Assembly: GCA_029851365.1 (NCBI GenBank)
Contig: CP099832.1
Coordinates: 123,641-184,356 of the forward strand
DNA length: 60,716 nt
Direction of reading: 5' to 3'
Source: Candidatus Shikimatogenerans bostrichidophilus
Lineage (GTDB): Bacteria > Bacteroidota > Bacteroidia > Flavobacteriales > Blattabacteriaceae
The position numbers and the translations under genes were made by a program. Each line of letters starts with the position of its first letter. Within the stretch, counting starts at the first letter, position 1. A model generated the notes under the pieces. The model did not search any database. It had not been told where the DNA came from and saw only the letters and a list, made by a program, of their open reading frames with translations. Below are positions 2,253-54,230 of this stretch, one piece after another.

Positions 2253-2286
2253 TTTATAAGAGATATTAAATTATATCTCTTATAAA
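2253..2286. terminator. Bidirectional hairpin between rpoD and pfkA
   Basis: The stem 2253-2266 pairs perfectly over 14 bp with 2273-2286 around a 6-base loop. It lies between the stop codons of two convergent genes, and the pfkA stop is inside the 3' arm. No long T-run follows on either strand, so it may act as a processing or stabilising hairpin rather than a classical intrinsic terminator. Confidence 0.6.
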
Positions 2287-3239
2287 TAAATATTATAAAA
2301 ATTATTATTATTAAATTTTTTATTAAAATTTATTAATTTTTTTAATTTTATATTAATAATTTTATTATTTTTTACTCCAAGTACTATATTATTTTTATAA
2401 TTAATTAATCTTTTAATTGATTCTTTACCAAATAAATAACCTAATAGTCTATCTATACTACTAGGTTTTCCTCCTCTTTGTATATAGCCTAATATAGTAT
2501 GTCTAAATTCGTAATTTTTAATATTTTTTTTAATTTTTTTATATATTAATTTAGAAGCATTACCAATATATTTATTTTCTGCTACTATAATAATATTAGA
2601 TTTAATTTTTTTTTTTTTTAATTCTTCTTGAATATTATTTAAATTATATTTATTATTATGAACTATATATAATGGACTTAATGCTATACCACTATAATAA
2701 GCTAAATATCCAGTATTTTTACCCATTACTTCTATAATAAAAATTCTATTATTAGAATATGCAATTTCTTTTAAATTATCTACAGTATTTACTATAGAAT
2801 TTAATGCAGTATCATATCCTAATGTCAAATCTGTACCATATATATCATTATCTATAGTTCCTGGTATTCCTATTATAGGTATTTTATATTCATTACTAAA
2901 TTTACTTATACCTTTTAAAGTACCATTACCACCTATTACAATTAGAGCATTAATTTTATTTTTTTTTAAATTTTTATAAGATATTTCACGGCCTTTAGTA
3001 GTAAAAAATAATTTAGATCTACTAGTACCTAAAATAGTACCTCCTAAATGTATAATATTATTAACATAAAAATTAGATAATATTTTATAATTATTTAAAA
3101 TTAATCCTTTATATCCATATAAAAATCCAAAAACTTTTATATTATAAATTGATGCAAAATTAACTATAGCTTTAATAGCTGAATTCATACCTGGAGAATC
3201 ACCACCAGAAGTTAATATACCTATATTATTTAATATCAT
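2280..3239 (-). CDS. pfkA: 6-phosphofructokinase
   Basis: Phosphorylates fructose 6-phosphate to fructose 1,6-bisphosphate, the committed step of glycolysis. The 319-residue length matches bacterial PfkA. Visible motifs are the nucleotide loop GILTSGGDSPGMN (residues 7-19), the catalytic PGTIDNDIYGTD (residues 126-137, with the aspartate base), VMGKNTGYLA and the sugar-phosphate site LGYIQRGGKPSSIDR. One oddity is VIGGNGTLKG at residues 101-110, where the family normally has GGDGS or GGDGT; the aspartate that coordinates Mg-ATP is asparagine here. The gene ends in the hairpin shared with rpoD and starts 2 bases after the stop of the upstream DUF3127 gene on the same strand. Confidence 0.92.
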   Translation of the reverse strand: MILNNIGILTSGGDSPGMNSAIKAIVNFASIYNIKVFGFLYGYKGLILNNYKILSNFYVNNIIHLGGTILGTSRSKLFFTTKGREISYKNLKKNKINALIVIGGNGTLKGISKFSNEYKIPIIGIPGTIDNDIYGTDLTLGYDTALNSIVNTVDNLKEIAYSNNRIFIIEVMGKNTGYLAYYSGIALSPLYIVHNNKYNLNNIQEELKKKKIKSNIIIVAENKYIGNASKLIYKKIKKNIKNYEFRHTILGYIQRGGKPSSIDRLLGYLFGKESIKRLINYKNNIVLGVKNNKIINIKLKKLINFNKKFNNNNFYNIYL

Positions 3240-44381: not shown

Positions 44382-45077
44382 ATGAATAAAATTAATAAAA
44401 TAAAAGGTACTATAGATTTATATAATGATAAATATTATATATTTAAATATATCGTAAATAAAATTAAAAAAATTTTTAAAAATAATGGATATATACCAAT
44501 AAATACTCCATCTATAGAAGATAAAAAGATATTAACTAATTTAAATATAAATCTATCTAATAAAATTATATATTATTTAAATAATAATAAATTTTTAATT
44601 TATGATTTAACTATACCTTTAATAAGATTTTTAAATAATAATTATAATAATTTAATATTTCCATTTAAAAGATATCAAATTCAAAAAGTATGGAGAGGTG
44701 AAAATCCACAATATAATAGATATAGAGAATTTTATCAATTCGATATAGATATAATATCATTTAGATATAATGATAAATATTATTTAGAATTAGAATTATT
44801 AACAATATGCGAAAAAATATTCAGTAATTTAAAATTAAAAGCTAATTTAGAAATAAATAATAAAAAATTATTATATGATTTATGTAAATTTTTATCTATA
44901 AAAAAAAATAAAATAAATAAATTTATTACTATTTTAGATAAAATTAATAAAGTTAAAATATATAATATTTTAAATTATATAAAAGTTAATAAAATTATAA
45001 AAAAAAAAAAATATAAAAAATTTATATATATTTATAAAAAAAATTTATTAAAAAATAATAAAAAAAAAATAAAATTT
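44382..45077 (+). pseudogene. hisS: Histidyl-tRNA synthetase, 5' part (interrupted gene)
   Basis: Encodes the first 232 residues of a class II HisRS. KGTIDLYNDKYYIFKYIVNK is the N-terminal block, LIYDLTIPLIRFL and FPFKRYQIQKVWRGENPQ lead into motif 2 (RYREFYQFDIDII). The family sequence stops at about KKKIKF, after which the frame continues 26 codons into unrelated repeat DNA and ends at 45155. Joined to the 3' part it would give about 443 residues, the normal HisRS length, with no gap. No other HisRS is in the window. It is therefore either broken, or intact in the real genome with an artefactual insert. Confidence 0.85.
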
Positions 45078-46238
45078 CTTGTCTTCACTCAAGATTTTGA
45101 ACTTAAAATTTTGTGTTTGAACTCAAAATTTTGGGTTAAAATGAGGAACTTTTAAGTCTACAATTGAAATTTTGAGTACAGACAAAGTTTATAAACGCAA
45201 AGTTTCTTGTCTTCATTCAAAATTTTGTACTTAAACTTAAACCCAAATAGAAAATTTTGAGTTGGCACAGTTTCAAGTAAAAAAATAAGATTTTGAACTT
45301 AAAATTTTATCAACACAAAATTTCTTGTCTTCAATCAAAATTTTGTACCACAACTTGAATCTTGTGTTTTGAACCAAAATTTGAAATTTGAATTCGAAAA
45401 TAAGATAAGAAACTTTTAAATTGCAATATCAACATTTTAATTAGGTACACACAGTTTCCAGTCGCAAGTATAGACAAAATATTAAAAATAGATTTTTAAA
45501 AACGAAATTTCTTGTCTGCACTCAAAATTTTTTACTTAAACCTGAAGTTTTGTGTTTGAACTTATATGTATACTTCCCTGTTTAAATAAAAAAATCGCAG
45601 ATTTCAACTAAAATTTTTTTTCTCAACTTGGAATTTTTGGTAAAACGAGGTAGTTTTAAGTCCAAAATTGAAATTTTGAGTTCAGAGACAAAGTTTCAAG
45701 TCACAAAGATACAATTATGAACTTAAATCTTTATAAACACAAACTTTCTGGCCTCAATTCAAAGATTTTGTTTGAATGCGCAAGTTTGATTTAAAACAAG
45801 ACTCAATAAAAAAATTTGACTACTCATATGAAATTCCAAATTTGAACTTTATATTTTGAGTTAAATGTAGAAACGAAAATTTGCTTCCAAACATAAAATA
45901 TTAAATTGAAACACAAAGTTTCAAATGCCAAAGATAAGATTATGAACTTTAAATGTTTTTAACAAAAAAATTCTTGTCTTCAATCAAAATGTTGTGCGTT
46001 GTTCTTACTTGAACTAGAAATTTTGTGTATAGACGCAAATTTCGTGTTTGAACTCGAAATTTTGAGTTAAAACAGAAGCTTTTGAGCCTGAAATCCAAAA
46101 TAGTGATTTCAAACTCAAAATTTTGTATTTGAATTTGAAGTTTTGTGTTTTGAACTGAAATTTTTAGTTAAAACAAGAAACATTTAAGTCTAAACAAAAA
46201 AATTTTGGTAGACAAAAAAAATGTAAACAGATTTATAA
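45078..46238. repeat. About 1.16-kb non-coding, higher-G+C degenerate tandem-repeat block inside hisS
   Basis: This stretch has no gene. Base composition differs sharply from its flanks (17 G+C in 45661-45720, about 28%, against about 3% in 44941-45000). It is made of diverged copies of one unit. The phrase TTTCTTGTCTTCANTCAAAA recurs near 45075, 45203, 45320, 45506, 45746 and 45969. A second phrase, TTTAAGTCTAAAATTGAAAT with variants, recurs near 45150 and 45655. Spacing between anchors runs from about 117 to 238 bases, so the unit is probably 190-240 bp with deletions. It contains many palindromic AAATTT/AAAATTTT cores. No transposase, terminal inverted repeat or tRNA is seen. It looks like eukaryotic satellite or host DNA. 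Boundaries are approximate. Confidence 0.85.
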
Positions 46239-46874
46239 AAATTATTGTATAATATATTTAATAAAAATAATTTAAATATAAAAAATTTAAATTATATAAA
46301 ATTATTATATAATAAATTATTAAAATATAATTTTAAATATCTTAATATATATATAAATTTTTTATTATCTAGAGGATTAAATTATTATAAGAATATTATA
46401 TTTGAAATTAAAACAAATACTTATAATACTTCTTTATTAGGTGGAGGATCTTATAATAATTATTTAAAAATTAATAATAAAAATACTTATTATATAGGTA
46501 TGTCTATAGGAATTTATAGAATATTAAATTATTTTATTGAAAAATTTAATAATATAAAAATAAAAAATAAAAATATAAAAATATTATTTATAAACTTAAA
46601 TTTAGAATATAATATTTATTATAAATATTTAAATTTATTAAATAATGAATATATAGTAGAAATTTATCCTAATTATATAAAAATTAAAAAACAAATAAAA
46701 TATGCAATTAAAAAAAAAATAAATATTTTAATATTTATAGGTAATAAAGAAATAAAAAATAATATAATAAAGATAAAAGATTTAAAAAGGGGGAAAGAAT
46801 ATATATTTTATAAATTAAATAAATTTTTAAATTTTTTAAAAAATTATAAATTATATATTTTATCTAAAATATGA
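46239..46874 (+). pseudogene. hisS: Histidyl-tRNA synthetase, 3' part (interrupted gene)
   Basis: Encodes the last 211 residues of HisRS in the same frame as the 5' part. The histidine-specific motif LLSRGLNYYKNIIFEIK, LLGGGSYNNYL and motif 3 YIGMSIGIYRIL are present, followed by a small anticodon-binding domain (ILFINLNLEYNIY to FIGNKEIKNNIIKIK). There is no ATG at its 5' end (TTG at 46245 is the nearest possible start), and in-frame TAA stops lie just upstream at 46224 and 46236. It overlaps the 3' end of the convergent dnaG by 31 bases, as intact gene pairs do in this genome. Confidence 0.85.
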
Positions 46875-48682
46875 TTTTTTTCTTTTATTAAATTATAAAA
46901 ATTATTTAAATAATAAGTATTATTTCTATTTATTTTTATTTTTAATATATGTATATTAATAGTTTTTAATACTATATAATATTTATATTTTAATGCATTT
47001 TCTTTAAAAATATATTTTATATTTTTATATTTTATAATTCTTTTATTTTTTTTATAAGTTAATTTTTTAAATTTTATATTATTCTTTTTAATTATATTTA
47101 AATATAAATTATTAGATTTATGATAAAAATTAATTTTATATTTTTTTAATATATTAAAAATATATTTTAAAATATTATATGAATATATAATTTTATTTTT
47201 ATTATTGTATTTATAAATCAAATTATATTTTCTTAATTTATAATATTTTTTTATTATATTAAAAATAATATTATTATAATATTCAATTTTTAACTTTAAA
47301 TTTATTTTTTTTGATATTTTTTTGTTATTTTTTTCTTCTTTTTCTTTACTATTTCTTTTTTCAATATTGATAGTTTTACTAAAATGAATTTTATTAATTT
47401 TATAAATTTCGTTATATACATATTTTTTTGATATTTTAAATTTTTTAATTATTTTTTGTATATAGAATTCTTTTACTATATTATTATTAATATATAAAAT
47501 TTTTTTTAAAAGTATACTTAATAATTTATATTTTAAAAATGGATCATTTAATTCTTTTTTATATATAATAAAAAAATAATCTATAAAATTTTTACTATTC
47601 TTTAGAAAATAATTATTTATATTATTTTTTAATTTATTATGTTGAATATAACTACTTGGATCTTCATTATCTTTAAAATAGAATAATCTTATATTAATAT
47701 CATTTTTAAAAAAAATAATAATGTTTTTAATTACTGCATCTATACCACTATTATCTCCATCATATAATAAAATTACATTATCTGTATATTTTTTAATTAA
47801 ATCTATATGGTATTGACTAATATTAGTACCTAGTGTAGCTACTACATTTTTTATATTAGCATTATATAAAGATAGAAGATCCATATAACCTTCTACTATA
47901 TAACATGAATTATTAATACTTATATATTTATTAGTTTCATATAAACCATATAATATTTTACTCTTATTAAAAAATAAATTATTTCTTGAATTTATATATT
48001 TATTAATTTTTACAGATAAATCAAAATTTCTACCTCCAAATCCTATAATATTACCATTAATATTTTTTATAGGAAACATTATCCTATTTTTAAATAAATA
48101 ATAAAATTTTTTATTAATAATAGTAAATATACCTATATTATTTAAAATATAATCGTTGAATTTTATTTTATTTTTTATAAAAAATGATTTTATAGATATA
48201 TTACTAGGTGAATATCCTATATTAAATTTTTTAATTGTTTTTTTATTTAAATTTCTTTTAATTAAATATTTATATACTTTTTTATTATTAAATAAAAATT
48301 TAACATATAATTTATTTATATTAATTAATATTTTATTTATTATAAATAAAAAATTATTCTCTTTTTTATATAAATTATTATTTTTTTTAAAATTAATATT
48401 TTTTATATTATATTTGTAATATTTATTAATTAAATAATTTATAGCTTGATAATAATTATAATTAAATATATACATAATAAACTTAACTAATGTACCACCC
48501 TTTCCACTACTAAAATCTTTCCAAATTTTTTTAGTAGGGGAAACCATAAAAGAAGGATTAGTTTCTTTTTTAAATGGACTAAATCCTTTATAATTATTAC
48601 CACATTCTTCTAATTTTACAAATTCACTTATAATTTTAACTATATTTAATTTTTTTATTAATTTATTAAAATAATTATTCAT
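46844..48682 (-). CDS. dnaG: DNA primase
   Basis: Synthesises RNA primers at the fork. The start at MNNYFNKLIKK (48682, 612 residues) is preferred over an ATG at 48721, because the longer form overlaps the divergent dapA start and adds residues foreign to the family. The N-terminal zinc-binding domain region reads NYKGFSPFKKETNPSFMVSP and IWKDFSSGKGGTLVKFI, so the usual Cys/His ligands are absent. I recall the same substitutions in other Bacteroidota primases. The core has IGFGGRNFD and SRNNLFFNKSKILYGLYE. The TOPRIM is YIVEGYMDLLSLY with LLYDGDNSGIDAV. The C-terminal helicase-binding part is divergent. Confidence 0.94.
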   Translation of the reverse strand: MNNYFNKLIKKLNIVKIISEFVKLEECGNNYKGFSPFKKETNPSFMVSPTKKIWKDFSSGKGGTLVKFIMYIFNYNYYQAINYLINKYYKYNIKNINFKKNNNLYKKENNFLFIINKILININKLYVKFLFNNKKVYKYLIKRNLNKKTIKKFNIGYSPSNISIKSFFIKNKIKFNDYILNNIGIFTIINKKFYYLFKNRIMFPIKNINGNIIGFGGRNFDLSVKINKYINSRNNLFFNKSKILYGLYETNKYISINNSCYIVEGYMDLLSLYNANIKNVVATLGTNISQYHIDLIKKYTDNVILLYDGDNSGIDAVIKNIIIFFKNDINIRLFYFKDNEDPSSYIQHNKLKNNINNYFLKNSKNFIDYFFIIYKKELNDPFLKYKLLSILLKKILYINNNIVKEFYIQKIIKKFKISKKYVYNEIYKINKIHFSKTINIEKRNSKEKEEKNNKKISKKINLKLKIEYYNNIIFNIIKKYYKLRKYNLIYKYNNKNKIIYSYNILKYIFNILKKYKINFYHKSNNLYLNIIKKNNIKFKKLTYKKNKRIIKYKNIKYIFKENALKYKYYIVLKTINIHILKIKINRNNTYYLNNFYNLIKEKNHILDKIYNL

Positions 48683-48711
48683 ATAAAATTCATTTAAATT
48701 AAGTAAATATA

Positions 48712-49593
48712 ATGAAAACAATTAAAAGATTTATACCATTAATTACACCATTAGATAATAATTTTAATATAGATTATTTATCACTTGAAAAAATACTATT
48801 TCATATAATTAATTTAGAGAAAATTAATTATTTAATTATTTTTGATAATATTTCAGAATATCAATTAATTAATTCAAATGATAAAATTGATTTAATTAAT
48901 TGTATTATTAATAATAATAAAAATAATTTAAAAATAATATTAAAAATTAATAATGTTTATAATTATTATGATTTAATATATGAAATTAATAAAAAAATAT
49001 ATAAAGATTTTTATTATATAATTATAGATTTTCCATTATATTATAATAATAAATATAAAGAAGATATTATAGAAAATTATATTAAATTATTTAAATATTA
49101 TAAATATTTATATTTTTATTTTTCTATAGAAGAAAAATCTAATATAGATGAAAATTTTTTTTTAATTTTAAAAAAGGAGTGTAATAATTTTAATGGTATA
49201 TTTAATAAAAAAAAATATATTTTTCAAAATTATGAATTAATAAATAATATTGATATTATAATTAATAATGATGTTAATCTATTTAATAATATACATTTAA
49301 ATATTAAAGGTGTATCATCTCCTTTATTTTATTTTTTTTTAAATTATTTTTATAATGAGATTTTTTATTATATAAAAAAAAATAAAATTTTTAAATTTAA
49401 TAAAATATATTATAATTTAAATAATTTAATAAATATTTTATATAAAAAAATTTATACTATATCAGGTATAAAATATTTATTAAATTATTTAAATTTGTGC
49501 AATTATTATATAAAAGACCCTATATATAATATAAAAGATATTATTTATTATAAAAGATTAATAACATTATTTAACAAAATAATAAATAAATAA
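48712..49593 (+). CDS. dapA: DapA-family protein (4-hydroxy-tetrahydrodipicolinate synthase fold), active site degenerate
   Basis: The 293-residue length and the opening FIPLITPLDNNFNIDYLSLE (family: xxxVTPFxxxGxxDxxxLxxL) identify the DapA aldolase family. YYN at 110-112 also fits. Other key positions do not. The GTTGE phosphate loop aligns with DNISE at 45-49, and the Schiff-base lysine in GIKE aligns with Phe164 in NGIFNKKK. The arginine after the YNVPSRT motif is also not evident. The late GVSSPLFYF resembles the family's ISVxxN region. It may be a decaying lysine-pathway gene or a protein with another role. It is divergent from dnaG and precedes rpoZ by 11 bases. Confidence 0.7.
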   Translation: MKTIKRFIPLITPLDNNFNIDYLSLEKILFHIINLEKINYLIIFDNISEYQLINSNDKIDLINCIINNNKNNLKIILKINNVYNYYDLIYEINKKIYKDFYYIIIDFPLYYNNKYKEDIIENYIKLFKYYKYLYFYFSIEEKSNIDENFFLILKKECNNFNGIFNKKKYIFQNYELINNIDIIINNDVNLFNNIHLNIKGVSSPLFYFFLNYFYNEIFYYIKKNKIFKFNKIYYNLNNLINILYKKIYTISGIKYLLNYLNLCNYYIKDPIYNIKDIIYYKRLITLFNKIINK

Positions 49594-49604
49594 CATAATA
49601 TTAT

Positions 49605-49910
49605 ATGAAAATATTATTAAAAAAAAAAAATAATTTGTTATTTGATATTAAAAATTTAGAAAAAATATCTAATACTTCTATATATAATTTAATAAATATT
49701 ATATCTAAAAGAGCAAAAATAATTAATAAAAATATTAGATTATATACTAAAGAAATATTATTACTTTTAAAAATTAAAAATTATAAGAATAAGAAAGATT
49801 TAAAAAATAAGATATTAAATATAAATAATTTACCTAATCCTTTATATTTAGCTATTATTGAATTATTAAAAAAAAATAAAAAAAATGAGGAAAAAAATAT
49901 ATATAAATAA
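49605..49910 (+). CDS. rpoZ: Probable RNA polymerase omega subunit, Bacteroidota type
   Basis: A 101-residue protein matching the Bacteroidota omega/Rpb6-like family from NTSIYNLINIISKRAKIINK near residues 23-42 (family: NIYEAxxIIAKRANQI) and NLPNPLYLAIIELLKK near the C-terminus (family: PKPxALAxxEWL). Omega binds the beta-prime C-terminus and aids polymerase assembly; rpoC is at the end of this window. Its 3' end overlaps aroB by 26 bases. The call rests on two short motifs. Confidence 0.7.
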   Translation: MKILLKKKNNLLFDIKNLEKISNTSIYNLINIISKRAKIINKNIRLYTKEILLLLKIKNYKNKKDLKNKILNINNLPNPLYLAIIELLKKNKKNEEKNIYK

Positions 49911-50946
49911 TAATTTTTATAAATTAAATCAGTTTTTAAAAATTAAGAAATATATAAATATTATATTATTATTAGATGATAATGTTAAAAAATTTTGTTT
50001 AAATATTTTATATAAATATTTATCTAATAATATAAAAAATAAAATTATATTATTTGAAATAAAATCAGGAGAAAATAATAAAAATTTAAATACATGTATA
50101 AATATTTGGAAAAAATTAATTAAATTAAAAATAAATAAAGATAGTCTAATAATTAATTTTGGGGGAGGTGTAATAACTGATTTAGGTGGTTTTATAAGTT
50201 CACTTTATAAAAGAGGTATAAATTTTATTAATATACCGACTACATTATTAAGTATGATAGATGCTTCTATAGGTGGTAAAAATGGTATAAATTTTTATAA
50301 ATTAAAAAATGAAATAGGTATTATTAAAAATCCTATATCTATATTTATTAATTATAAATTATTATTAAGTTTACCTAAAAAAGAAATTACTTCAGGCTTA
50401 GGAGAAATTTTAAAATATGGATTAATATATAATAAAAAATTATGGAATAGAATTATAAATAAAAATATTGATAATATTAATTGGAAATTTATAATATATA
50501 AATCTATAAAGATTAAATTATCAATAGTAAAAAAAGATCCATATGAATTATTAGGTTATAGAAAAATATTAAATTTTGGGCATACTATAGGTCATGCTAT
50601 AGAAAGTTTATTTTTATATAATAAATATCCTATTACACATGGTGAAGCTATTATGTTAGGTATGATATGTGAATCATGGATATCTAAATATAAAGGATAT
50701 TTAAATAATAATGAATATAAAAAAATATTAAATGGAATATTAAAATATATAGAAATTAAAAAAATTAATGAAATTTTTTTTAAATATATATTAAATACAA
50801 TTGAAAATGATAAAAAAAATTTTAATAATAAAATTTATTTTGTATTATTAAAAAAAATAGGTAAATCTATTTATAATATAGAAATTAAAAAAAAAATTAT
50901 TATAGATAGTATTAAAGTATTGAATAATATAAAAAAAATAATATGA
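49885..50946 (+). CDS. aroB: 3-dehydroquinate synthase
   Basis: NAD- and metal-dependent second step of the shikimate pathway (DAHP to 3-dehydroquinate). The 353 residues show NFGGGVITDLGGFISSLYKR with INIPTTLLSMIDASIGGKNG (NAD and phosphate binding), SGLGEILKYGLI, and the metal ligands in FGHTIGHAIES and THGEAIMLGM. Length is normal. The start lies inside the end of rpoZ, and the TGA stop overlaps the gyrA ATG (ATGA), so it is part of a tightly coupled dapA-rpoZ-aroB-gyrA-rplS run. Confidence 0.96.
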   Translation: MRKKIYINNNFYKLNQFLKIKKYINIILLLDDNVKKFCLNILYKYLSNNIKNKIILFEIKSGENNKNLNTCINIWKKLIKLKINKDSLIINFGGGVITDLGGFISSLYKRGINFINIPTTLLSMIDASIGGKNGINFYKLKNEIGIIKNPISIFINYKLLLSLPKKEITSGLGEILKYGLIYNKKLWNRIINKNIDNINWKFIIYKSIKIKLSIVKKDPYELLGYRKILNFGHTIGHAIESLFLYNKYPITHGEAIMLGMICESWISKYKGYLNNNEYKKILNGILKYIEIKKINEIFFKYILNTIENDKKNFNNKIYFVLLKKIGKSIYNIEIKKKIIIDSIKVLNNIKKII

Positions 50947-53387
50947 AAGATAAATATATAAAATCTATTACTATTAATAATGAAGTTAAAAAATCGTATA
51001 TAGATTATGCGATGTCAGTAATAGTATCTAGAGCTTTACCTGATGTTAGAGATGGATTAAAACCAGTACATAGAAGAATATTATATTCTATGTATAAATT
51101 AGGTATATTTTATAATAAAAATTATAAAAAATCAGCACGTATTGTAGGTGAAGTATTAGGTAAATATCATCCACATGGAGATAAATCAGTATACGATAGT
51201 ATTGTACGTATGTCACAATTATGGAATATAAGATATAAATTAATAATAGGTCAAGGTAACTTCGGATCAATAGATAATGATCCACCTGCAGCCATGAGAT
51301 ATACAGAAATTAAATTAGAAAAAATTACTAATGAAATGTTATATGATATTAAGTACAATACAGTAAAAATGAAGAGTAATTTTGATGATACATTATTAGA
51401 GCCTGTTGTATTACCTACAAAAATACCTAATATAATTATTAATGGATGTACAGGTATAGCAGTAGGTATGGCTACAAATATGCCTCCACATAATTTAACA
51501 GAAACTATTAATACTATATGTAAATATATAGATAATAAAAATATTAATATTAATAAATTAATAAAATCTATAAAAGGTCCTGATTTTCCTACTGGAGGAA
51601 TTATATTATCTTATAATGGTATTATAAATGCTTATAAAAAAGGTAAAGGTAAAATTATTATTAGATCTAAGTATTATATTAAAAAGACTAAAAAAAATAA
51701 GTATTTAATAATTAAAGAAATTCCTTATCAAGTTATAAAAAGTAATTTAATAAAAAAAATTTATGATTTAATAAAAATAGGTAAATTAGAAGAAATAGAA
51801 AACATAAAAGATGAATCTAATAAAAAAGGTATAAGAATAATATTATTATTAAATAAAAATAGTATATCAGATATAGTAATTAATAAATTATTAAAATATA
51901 CTGATTTAGAAGTAAGTTACCATATTAATAATATAGCTTTAGTTAATGGTAAACCTAAAAGATTAAATTTAAAAGAATTAATTTCATATTTTATTAAACA
52001 TAGAAATGAAGTTATTATTAATAAGTCTAAATTTTTTTTATTAACTAATAAAAAAAAATTACATTTATTAAAAGGATTTATAAAAATTTCAAATAAAATT
52101 AATAAATTATTAGATTTAATAAAAAAATCAATATCTTATAAAGATTCTTTTAATAATATAAAAAGAATATTTAATTTATCAGATTTACAAATAAAATTTA
52201 TTTTAAATACTAAATTATATAAATTAACAAATAATGAAATAAAAAATTTAGTTAATAAATATAATGAAGTAAAAGATTTTATAATAAAAAATAAAAATAT
52301 TATAAATTCAGAAAATGAAAGAATGAGTATAATTAAAAATGAATTATTATATATTAAAAATATATATGGTGATTCTAGAAGAACTTTAATTGATTATTCA
52401 GATTATGAATACTTAAATTCTAAAAAAATAAATTTAATTGAAAATTTAAAACTTTTAATAATTTTAACTAAAAATGGATATATAAAAAGAACTTTATTGT
52501 CAGAATATAAAACTCAAAAAAGAGGAGGATTAGGATCTAAATGTATAACTATAGAAAAAAATGATTCTATTAAAAAAGTTTTAGTAGGTAGTAATCATTA
52601 TTACGTTATGTTTTTTACATCTAATGGTAGAGGATATTTATTAAAAATTTATAATATACCTATAGGTAATAAAAAATTTAAAGGTCGTGCTATACAAAAT
52701 TTTATTAAAGTTAAAAAAAAAATACAAACTTATATATTCATAAAAACACTATATGATAAAGAATATATAGATAATCATTATATAGTTATGGTTACAAAAT
52801 ATGGTGTAGTTAAACGTACAATTTTAAATAAATATATAAATATTAGAAAAAATGGTATTAAATCTATAATATTAAGAGATAATGATCCACTATTAGAAGC
52901 AATATTAACTAATGGTTCTTCTAAATTATTAATAGCAATTAATAATGGAAAAGCTATAATATTTAATGAAAAAGATATTAAATTAACAAATAGAACTACT
53001 ATTGGTGTAAAAGGTATATATATAAATAAAGAAAAAGATAAAGTTATAGGTATAGTATCTTATGAAGATATTAATAAAGAAGTATTAGTAGTTTCTGAAC
53101 ATGGATATGGTAAAAGAACTTTATTAAAAAATTATAGAGTAACTAATAGAGGATGTATAGGAGTAAAAACTATAAATATAACTCCTAAAACAGGTAAATT
53201 AATTTCTATTTTAGTAGTTTCTAATAATGACGATTTAATGTTAATAAAAACTAATGGAGTAGCATTAAGAATAAATATATCTACAATAAGAATAGTAAGT
53301 AGAAATTCTCAAGGAGTTAAATTAATAAAATTAAATAAAGATGAAAAAATTGCTAGTGTAGTATTAATAAAAAATAAATATATATAA
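50943..53387 (+). CDS. gyrA: DNA gyrase subunit A
   Basis: Breakage-reunion subunit of gyrase, 814 residues. Signatures are YAMSVIVSRALPDVRDGLKP, HRRILYSMYKLG, GKYHPHGDKSVYDSIVRMSQ, GQGNFGSIDNDPPAAMRYTE (with the catalytic Tyr) and NGCTGIAVGMATNMPPHNL. The GyrA box TQKRGGLGSK (consensus QRRGGKG) marks the wrapping C-terminal domain and supports GyrA over ParC. Later pinwheel blades (TNGRGYLLKIYNIP, RTILNKYINIR) are recognisable. It overlaps aroB by four bases and is followed after 2 bases by rplS. Confidence 0.96.
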   Translation: MKDKYIKSITINNEVKKSYIDYAMSVIVSRALPDVRDGLKPVHRRILYSMYKLGIFYNKNYKKSARIVGEVLGKYHPHGDKSVYDSIVRMSQLWNIRYKLIIGQGNFGSIDNDPPAAMRYTEIKLEKITNEMLYDIKYNTVKMKSNFDDTLLEPVVLPTKIPNIIINGCTGIAVGMATNMPPHNLTETINTICKYIDNKNININKLIKSIKGPDFPTGGIILSYNGIINAYKKGKGKIIIRSKYYIKKTKKNKYLIIKEIPYQVIKSNLIKKIYDLIKIGKLEEIENIKDESNKKGIRIILLLNKNSISDIVINKLLKYTDLEVSYHINNIALVNGKPKRLNLKELISYFIKHRNEVIINKSKFFLLTNKKKLHLLKGFIKISNKINKLLDLIKKSISYKDSFNNIKRIFNLSDLQIKFILNTKLYKLTNNEIKNLVNKYNEVKDFIIKNKNIINSENERMSIIKNELLYIKNIYGDSRRTLIDYSDYEYLNSKKINLIENLKLLIILTKNGYIKRTLLSEYKTQKRGGLGSKCITIEKNDSIKKVLVGSNHYYVMFFTSNGRGYLLKIYNIPIGNKKFKGRAIQNFIKVKKKIQTYIFIKTLYDKEYIDNHYIVMVTKYGVVKRTILNKYINIRKNGIKSIILRDNDPLLEAILTNGSSKLLIAINNGKAIIFNEKDIKLTNRTTIGVKGIYINKEKDKVIGIVSYEDINKEVLVVSEHGYGKRTLLKNYRVTNRGCIGVKTINITPKTGKLISILVVSNNDDLMLIKTNGVALRINISTIRIVSRNSQGVKLIKLNKDEKIASVVLIKNKYI

Positions 53388-53731: not shown

Positions 53732-53759
53732 AGATATAAATAAATCTCTATTTTTTTTT
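53729..53759. terminator. Bidirectional terminator between rplS and the peroxiredoxin-like gene
   Basis: TAGAGAT at 53729-53735 pairs with ATCTCTA at 53744-53750 around an 8-base loop. A run of nine T follows on the plus strand, and A-rich sequence ahead of the stem gives a T-rich tail on the minus strand. Both flanking genes have TAG stops lying inside the stem arms. This is the most classical intrinsic terminator in the window. Confidence 0.75.
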
Positions 53760-54230
53760 AAAATATATGTTACCATATTTATTATAATATTGCCATTTAT
53801 CAATTATTCTTAATATTTCATTTATATTGTAATTAATATTTTTATTATGTATAGATATATGTCTAATAAATTTATTATTATCTATAAAAAATATAGTTTT
53901 ATTTAATTCTTTATTAATTTTTGTTAATAAATTATATTTATATGATATAATTTTATTAGTATCATAGAACAATAAAAATTTAATTTTATTATTTAATTTA
54001 AACTGTATTTTATCTGTTAATATACAAATTACTTCTACATTTCTTATATAAAAATCTTTATATAACAATTGAAATTCAAACAAATCTTGTATAAATCTAT
54101 AAGTAGTAAAAAATAATATTATATATTTGTTATTTATATATTTTTTAAAATTTATTTTCTTTATAATTTTATTATTTTTAATTCCATCATATAAAAAATT
54201 AGGAGTTATTTTATTAATTAAATTTATCAT
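53748..54230 (-). CDS. Peroxiredoxin (AhpC/TSA)-like protein without catalytic cysteines
   Basis: A 160-residue thioredoxin-fold protein. KYIILFFTTYRFIQDLFEFQ (residues 35-54) aligns with the AhpC block FFFYPADFTFVCPTE, followed by VEVICILTD (family VEVxxVSTD), NKTIFFIDNNKFIRHISIHN (family GTFVIDPEGxIR) and a C-terminal LRIIDKWQYYNKYGNIYFKK. The peroxidatic cysteine position is Gln48, and the C-terminal VCPAKW cysteine is also gone. The only cysteine, Cys69, sits in a core strand. It is therefore unlikely to reduce peroxides. It shares a hairpin terminator with rplS and starts 2 bases downstream of efp. Confidence 0.72.
   Translation of the reverse strand: MINLINKITPNFLYDGIKNNKIIKKINFKKYINNKYIILFFTTYRFIQDLFEFQLLYKDFYIRNVEVICILTDKIQFKLNNKIKFLLFYDTNKIISYKYNLLTKINKELNKTIFFIDNNKFIRHISIHNKNINYNINEILRIIDKWQYYNKYGNIYFKKK

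Follow-up and report, generated by a model that had tools for sequence, protein, structure and literature searches.

Here we describe an open reading frame that is probably a pseudoenzyme, in which catalysis would have been lost while the fold was kept and the protein retained for a putative non-catalytic role. The frame descends from dapA, the gene for dihydrodipicolinate synthase (DHDPS, DapA, EC 4.3.3.7). Catalytic residues are missing in all eight sequences of its clade, partner genes of the lysine pathway were not found in the nine genus genomes compared, and the protein is under purifying selection. An annotation as dapA by homology would imply a part in making lysine or cell wall, and the evidence does not support this. 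Searches of an open-access library, judged by titles and abstract openings, listed no report of a dead DapA in a symbiont.

The window, meaning the whole stretch of 60,716 nucleotides analysed, is part of a 184,356-bp genome with a GC content of 15.5 %. Its aroB shares 85, 62 and 61 % identity with Candidatus Shikimatogenerans bostrichidophilus isolates SUNI, HHAM and BCAP respectively, which places the genome among, or close to, the Bacteroidota that live as symbionts in bostrichid beetles. Genome sizes within this lineage range from 173 to 200 kb, and a GC content of 16.2 % is given for S. silvanidophilus (PMC8113238). Passages of the symbiont genome paper credit Shikimatogenerans with genetic information processing and almost nothing beyond the shikimate pathway, and assign lysine synthesis to the co-symbiont Bostrichicola; the word "dihydrodipicolinate" is absent from the main text (PMC10284843). 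Our genus set comprises nine genomes, namely the window's own (G000) and eight others of the same genus; three of the nine, G003 and G007 among them, contain stretches of N. Outside the genus, G009 has a GC content of 31-34 % and G012, a draft of 10 contigs that is probably the nearest outside relative of the genus, has 17 % in the stretch read.

The DapA-like frame heads a packed run in which it is followed by an rpoZ-like ORF, aroB, gyrA and rplS; the names gyrA and rplS are ones we presume from their sequences. A sequence-only reading of the window had described a full open frame in such a run, and that description holds:

46844..48721, minus strand: dnaG, the divergent neighbour, with an ATG at 48682, 29 bp short of the DapA-like ORF
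48712..49593, plus strand: the dapA-derived ORF with catalytic residues lost, 293 codons from an ATG start in one open frame
49605..49910, plus strand: the rpoZ-like ORF (PF01192 below cut-off, E 0.022), starting 11 bp downstream of the DapA-like ORF
49885..50946, plus strand: aroB, overlapping the rpoZ-like ORF by 26 bp
50943..53387, plus strand: gyrA, overlapping aroB by 4 bp

Profile comparison and gene order bear on the descent of the ORF. The NCBIfam profile TIGR00674 (dapA) matches every one of the eight clade members with an E of 1 or below, the best at 3.8e-13; the window protein scores E 4.9e-6 and 25.6 bits, below the curated equivalog cut-off of 206 bits. In the Pfam profile search PF00701 gave no match for the window protein; it exceeds the gathering cut-off in three of the nine genus genomes (G001, G005 and G007) and at E up to 1 is matched by five of the eight clade members. 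When a profile of the eight was aligned by hhalign with eight intact symbiont DapA proteins, the match was 99.6 % with E 2e-24 over 284 columns, and both hhalign and TIGR00674 indicate that the homology to DHDPS spans the whole length. In all six family-level relatives examined, dapA is followed by an rpoZ-like ORF, recognised by eye, directly in G009 and G013 and after one or two ORFs in G010, G015, G018 and G034. Because profile homology and gene order near rpoZ agree, the ORF is most simply a dapA orthologue, rather than a paralogue or a chance frame. A PF00701 search of the window's genome found no active DapA paralogue, and two viral-contig scans and a plasmid search found no further homologues.

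The active site was read from an alignment of E. coli K-12 DapA as yardstick, 22 intact relatives and the eight clade sequences (the window's own and those of seven of the eight other genus genomes), on which three mafft modes agree. The main differences in the window protein are as follows:

48844..48858, plus strand: DNISE (residues 45-49) replacing the GTTGE loop, with only E49 retained
48943..48945, plus strand: Lys78 at E. coli Gly76, in predicted strand beta-3, a clade-specific invariant
49120..49122, plus strand: Phe137 at the Tyr133 position (mafft alignment)
49135..49137, plus strand: Lys142 at the Arg138 position (mafft alignment)
49201..49203, plus strand: Phe164 aligned with the Schiff-base Lys161 (three mafft modes and hhalign)
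49264..49272, plus strand: N185-N186-D187 at the GDD motif (G186-D187-D188), with N186 and D187 invariant in all eight

Both substitutions named in the sequence-only reading, Phe164 for the catalytic lysine and DNISE for GTTGE, are thus borne out, and they extend to the clade. The Lys161 position holds F, L or I in all eight members, and all 22 intact relatives have K there. Six E. coli residues, T44, T45, Y133, R138, K161 and G186, are altered in every clade sequence (in the window T44 is replaced by N46, T45 by I47 and G186 by N185). The glutamate that closes the loop (E47, here E49) is retained in all eight, Y106 and Y107 in two, and I203 in six. Active-site residues described for DHDPS include the T44-Y107-Y133 triad and R138, besides Y106, K161, G186 and I203 (passages of PMC3369909); T44, Y133 and R138 are changed throughout the clade, and Y107 survives in the two sequences. 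No conserved lysine substitutes at the Lys161 position, the nearby K166 being lysine in six of the eight. Position 78 is K in 8/8 clade members and G or S in 22/22 relatives, and this new lysine is a candidate for another lysine in the active site, the circumstance that the sequence-only reading had set against itself. Of the overall DapA pattern noted previously, the length of 293 stands; its YYN element is real in the window and in G003 but comes after a one-residue insertion, and both tyrosines are missing in the other six. The protein therefore resembles DHDPS in length, full-length profile homology, gene order near rpoZ and retention of T12-P13, E49, G252, K254 and P270, but differs from it in lacking Lys161, T44, Y133 and R138, in lying far under the family cut-off and in the pathway genes not found around it.

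Those genes were sought by profile. None of asd (PF02774), dapB (PF01113), dapF (PF01678) or a lysA-type gene (PF02784) was found in the nine genus genomes, an absence less sure in three of them because parts read N. In order-level genomes asd, dapF and lysA-type genes are present in 4/4 and dapB in 8/8. Substrate and sink of DHDPS are thus apparently not encoded; dapB and lysA had been named in the earlier reading among the genes to look for. That the protein might keep residual DHDPS activity without its lysine, for lysine or meso-DAP, is extremely improbable: the E. coli variants K161R and K161A do keep some activity, after a 300-800-fold loss (passages of PMC3188589), but here the proton-relay residues are gone as well and the four genes were not found.

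Loss of the catalytic residues has, in most of the genus, not been accompanied by loss of the frame. The frame is open, with no internal stop, in eight of the nine genus genomes and encodes proteins of 288-295 aa. In the unsaturated pair G004-G007, omega is 0.33 (dN 0.075, dS 0.22, 2ΔlnL 12.2), and four other pairs, in which dS is saturated, give 2ΔlnL of 61-112 against omega = 1; G000-G003, one of the saturated pairs, gives 112 and G000-G001 gives 85. In the G004-G007 pair and its controls the frames run between stop codons and take in a few codons upstream of the start. Control omegas are 0.14 for AroB, 0.09 for AroA, 0.04 for GyrA and 0.26 for both RplS and Efp; the constraint on the DapA-like protein is looser than that on the first three and close to that on the last two. 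A neutral nucleotide simulation to 75 % identity, with substitutions only, accumulated a mean of 9.2 stops and left 0 of 2000 runs open; the G000-G003 pair, at 78 % identity, has zero stops. Ranked among 152-157 orthologues, the identity of the G001 protein to its counterparts in G006, G005 and G004 falls at the 19th-20th percentile, so the protein evolves faster than most orthologues yet within the ordinary range. By these codon comparisons the protein is maintained by purifying selection. With no stops in 8/8 sequences and omega below 1, neither the broken frame nor the neutral evolution of a pseudogene is found.

The position of the ORF allows a further reading, in which it would be kept as a leader, to space or help express the rpoZ-like ORF, aroB and gyrA, rather than for its protein. 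It does stand first in the packed run, with the rpoZ-like ORF 11 bp away and then the overlapping aroB and gyrA. Selection, however, operates on amino acids, and G008 has aroB and gyrA without the DapA-like ORF, which makes this very unlikely.

G008 lacks the DapA-like ORF together with the greater part of dnaG and the beginning of the rpoZ-like ORF, all at one place (L071:8100-8760), where, read by eye, remnants of the dnaG and rpoZ-like tails form a deletion-like junction; aroB and gyrA are retained despite the loss. The protein is dispensable in G008, because it has been lost there, unless the junction is an assembly fault. The draft genome G012 likewise gave no match to DapA or its divergent form, and dnaG had no match in G002, G009 and G012 either.

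The tempo of change differs between the origin of the clade and its later history. The stem of the DapA-like proteins measures 2.59 substitutions per site, and their crown is on average 0.65 deep; the corresponding values are 0.56 and 0.51 for AroB, and 0.61 and 0.37 for GyrA. G009 and G013 served as outgroups throughout; the DapA tree also had G034, and the AroB and GyrA trees had G016 (of the same genus). Crown topologies differ among the three trees. Of the 60 residues that are invariant in the clade, 29 coincide with the most frequent residue among the relatives, 7 are mixed and 24 are new, meaning found in at most one of the 22 relatives. In a separate alignment 29 of the 60 match G009, against 72-90 % of invariants for nine controls (aroG, aroB, aroQ, aroK, aroA, aroC, pfkA, def and korB). 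Three genes were set aside from this twelve-gene comparison: sufS (55/66) and iscS (37/39), where the best hits may come from more than one paralogue, and map, which runs contrary to the contrast with 31/112 and is present in G009 only as pieces. Branch lengths and invariants together indicate that the protein is largely rewritten along the stem branch and held thereafter.

Other enzyme orthologues of the lineage have also lost catalytic residues. Their catalytic motifs, and the name HisH-like, are presumed from the sequences:

53748..54230, minus strand, inside the window: an AhpC/TSA-family ORF without the presumed peroxidatic cysteine
L161:17705-18301: a HisH-like amidotransferase ORF (PF00117), with counterparts in six other genus genomes
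L146:16134-17168: a GapA-like ORF (PF00044/PF02800), with counterparts in five other genus genomes

The AhpC cysteine is present in G004, G005, G006 and G007 and absent in G000, G003 and G001, and G002 and G008 gave no match. In the HisH-like ORF the cysteine nucleophile is replaced by Ser or Val in 7/7 genomes, and G009 keeps GICLG; 28 of its 40 invariants match G009, so rewriting of the kind seen in the DapA-like protein is not common to it. The GapA-like ORFs (311-344 aa from ATG) lack the catalytic cysteine in 6/6. HisH-like and GapA-like ORFs are constrained, with 2ΔlnL of 53-104 in five comparisons. Erosion appears gene-specific because the PfkA and AroQ motifs in the window's own genome look intact by eye. 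In G001 the HisH-like ORF adjoins a weak His_biosynth-like ORF.

These series also bear on slow decay, the reading in which the DapA-like protein has no positive function and selection merely purges harmful misfolded or truncated forms, so that the frame lingers. Stages of such a process may be seen within the genus: the AhpC cysteine is present in four of nine genomes, lost with an open ORF in three and accompanied by no match in two; the HisH-like nucleophile is lost throughout and the ORF not found in two of nine genomes (G003 of these partly N); and the DapA-like ORF is gone from G008 and unmatched in G012. On the other side, 24 clade-specific invariants, an ordinary crown rate and an omega of 0.33 exceed what avoidance of toxicity would lead one to expect, and we regard slow decay as a rather unlikely account. 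The plain decay proposed from the sequence, for which dN/dS had been suggested as a check, is not supported: with the frame open in eight of nine genomes, 24 newly fixed residues and omega 0.33 in G004-G007 (2ΔlnL 12.2), "decaying gene" is too weak a description. The accompanying suggestion, that the protein is kept for another reason, suits it better and fits a role other than that of DapA; the word moonlighting does not carry over, as nothing indicates two concurrent functions.

Structure prediction speaks to the fold. Two template-free AlphaFold models built from four sequences are poor (mean pLDDT 46.4 and 46.2), and in them strands and helices alternate. A Foldseek search with the first listed 1291 solved chains at E up to 10, of which 12 reach E 0.001 or better; every one of the 12 is an N-acetylneuraminate lyase, with TM of 0.34-0.40, and other barrels stand lower in the list. 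This weakly supports a barrel fold. These 12 matches to a low-confidence model, together with the five PF00701 matches at E up to 1, liken the protein to the N-acetylneuraminate lyase family, from which it differs in the missing Schiff-base lysine and in a TM that is only 0.34-0.40. At such pLDDT side chains cannot be placed, and fold retention remains a presumption. When strands beta-1 and beta-8 are assigned manually, invariant residues occupy 12 of 48 strand-end or loop positions and 48 of 245 elsewhere, and thus do not cluster. This distribution suits a fold and names no binding site.

The same distribution tells against a neofunctionalised enzyme, which would use a rebuilt site of K78 on beta-3 with E49, N80, N186, D187 and S203 to catalyse another reaction. 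Such a site could draw on K78, N80, N186 and P204, all new and invariant in 8/8, on E49, D187 and S203, retained in 8/8, and on the fact that K78 is the sole invariant lysine in a predicted strand. Yet the invariants are not gathered at strand ends, the orientation of K78 follows solely from its alignment to Gly76, and the fit to a sugar-bisphosphate aldolase pathway is poor, which leaves a rebuilt enzyme improbable. A fuller version, in which the clade, after loss of Lys161, fixed an inner K78 with N80, N186, D187 and E49 for an unknown chemistry needed by a symbiont with few products other than aromatic precursors, is likewise improbable.

Specific roles were also considered and dropped. A sugar-bisphosphate aldolase route to erythrose 4-phosphate, run by the DapA-like protein together with PfkA, fits badly with G008, which has pfkA and lacks both class II fba and the DapA-like ORF, and with G004 and G007, the only two of the nine genus genomes in which class II fba was found, both of which also have the DapA-like ORF. 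PFK was found in seven of the nine; its non-detection in G003 and G007 is no evidence because both partly read N. In the window pfkA (2280-3239) is strongly conserved (PF00365, E 3.8e-90); no other glycolytic genes were recognised by eye among the ORFs of its genome, in which the search for class II fba was negative too. A role as 3-dehydroquinase was dropped because an aroQ-like ORF, presumably so from motifs recognised by eye, is present. Replacement of shikimate dehydrogenase (aroE) was dropped by reasoning, since a DapA barrel is not known to have an NADPH site. The gene aroE is described as absent from Shikimatogenerans in passages of PMC10284843.

We return to the pseudoenzyme. Pseudoenzymes are catalytically dead homologues retained for binding or allostery. 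Like them, the DapA-like protein is an enzyme homologue whose catalytic residues are gone and whose frame and purifying selection are kept; unlike pseudoenzymes in general, it has no active paralogue found beside it in the genome. Since selection preserves the protein after loss of its key catalytic residues, in genomes where the pathway was not found, a job other than the original one is probable. Loss of asd and dapB may have released the active site from constraint, and the catalytic residues would have been lost once, before the last common ancestor of the clade. The (beta/alpha)8 fold would persist, with a role that is presumably no longer DHDPS chemistry, and the protein may bind a small ligand or another protein, or serve as a structural subunit.

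The symbiont lineage retains DapA, HisH-like, GapA-like and, in part, AhpC proteins as constrained ORFs after loss of catalytic residues. If this is general, gene content of reduced genomes overstates their metabolism, and retention of proteins past catalysis is a testable stage of genome erosion.

Elsewhere in the window, hisS (44382-46874) is interrupted at about 45077-46222 by some 1.15 kb of DNA that is repetitive internally and has a GC content of 25.5 %, against 8-10 % in its flanks. HisS in G003 is a single frame of 439 aa, and the split in the window reflects either an insertion, in which case an essential gene is hit, or a chimeric assembly.
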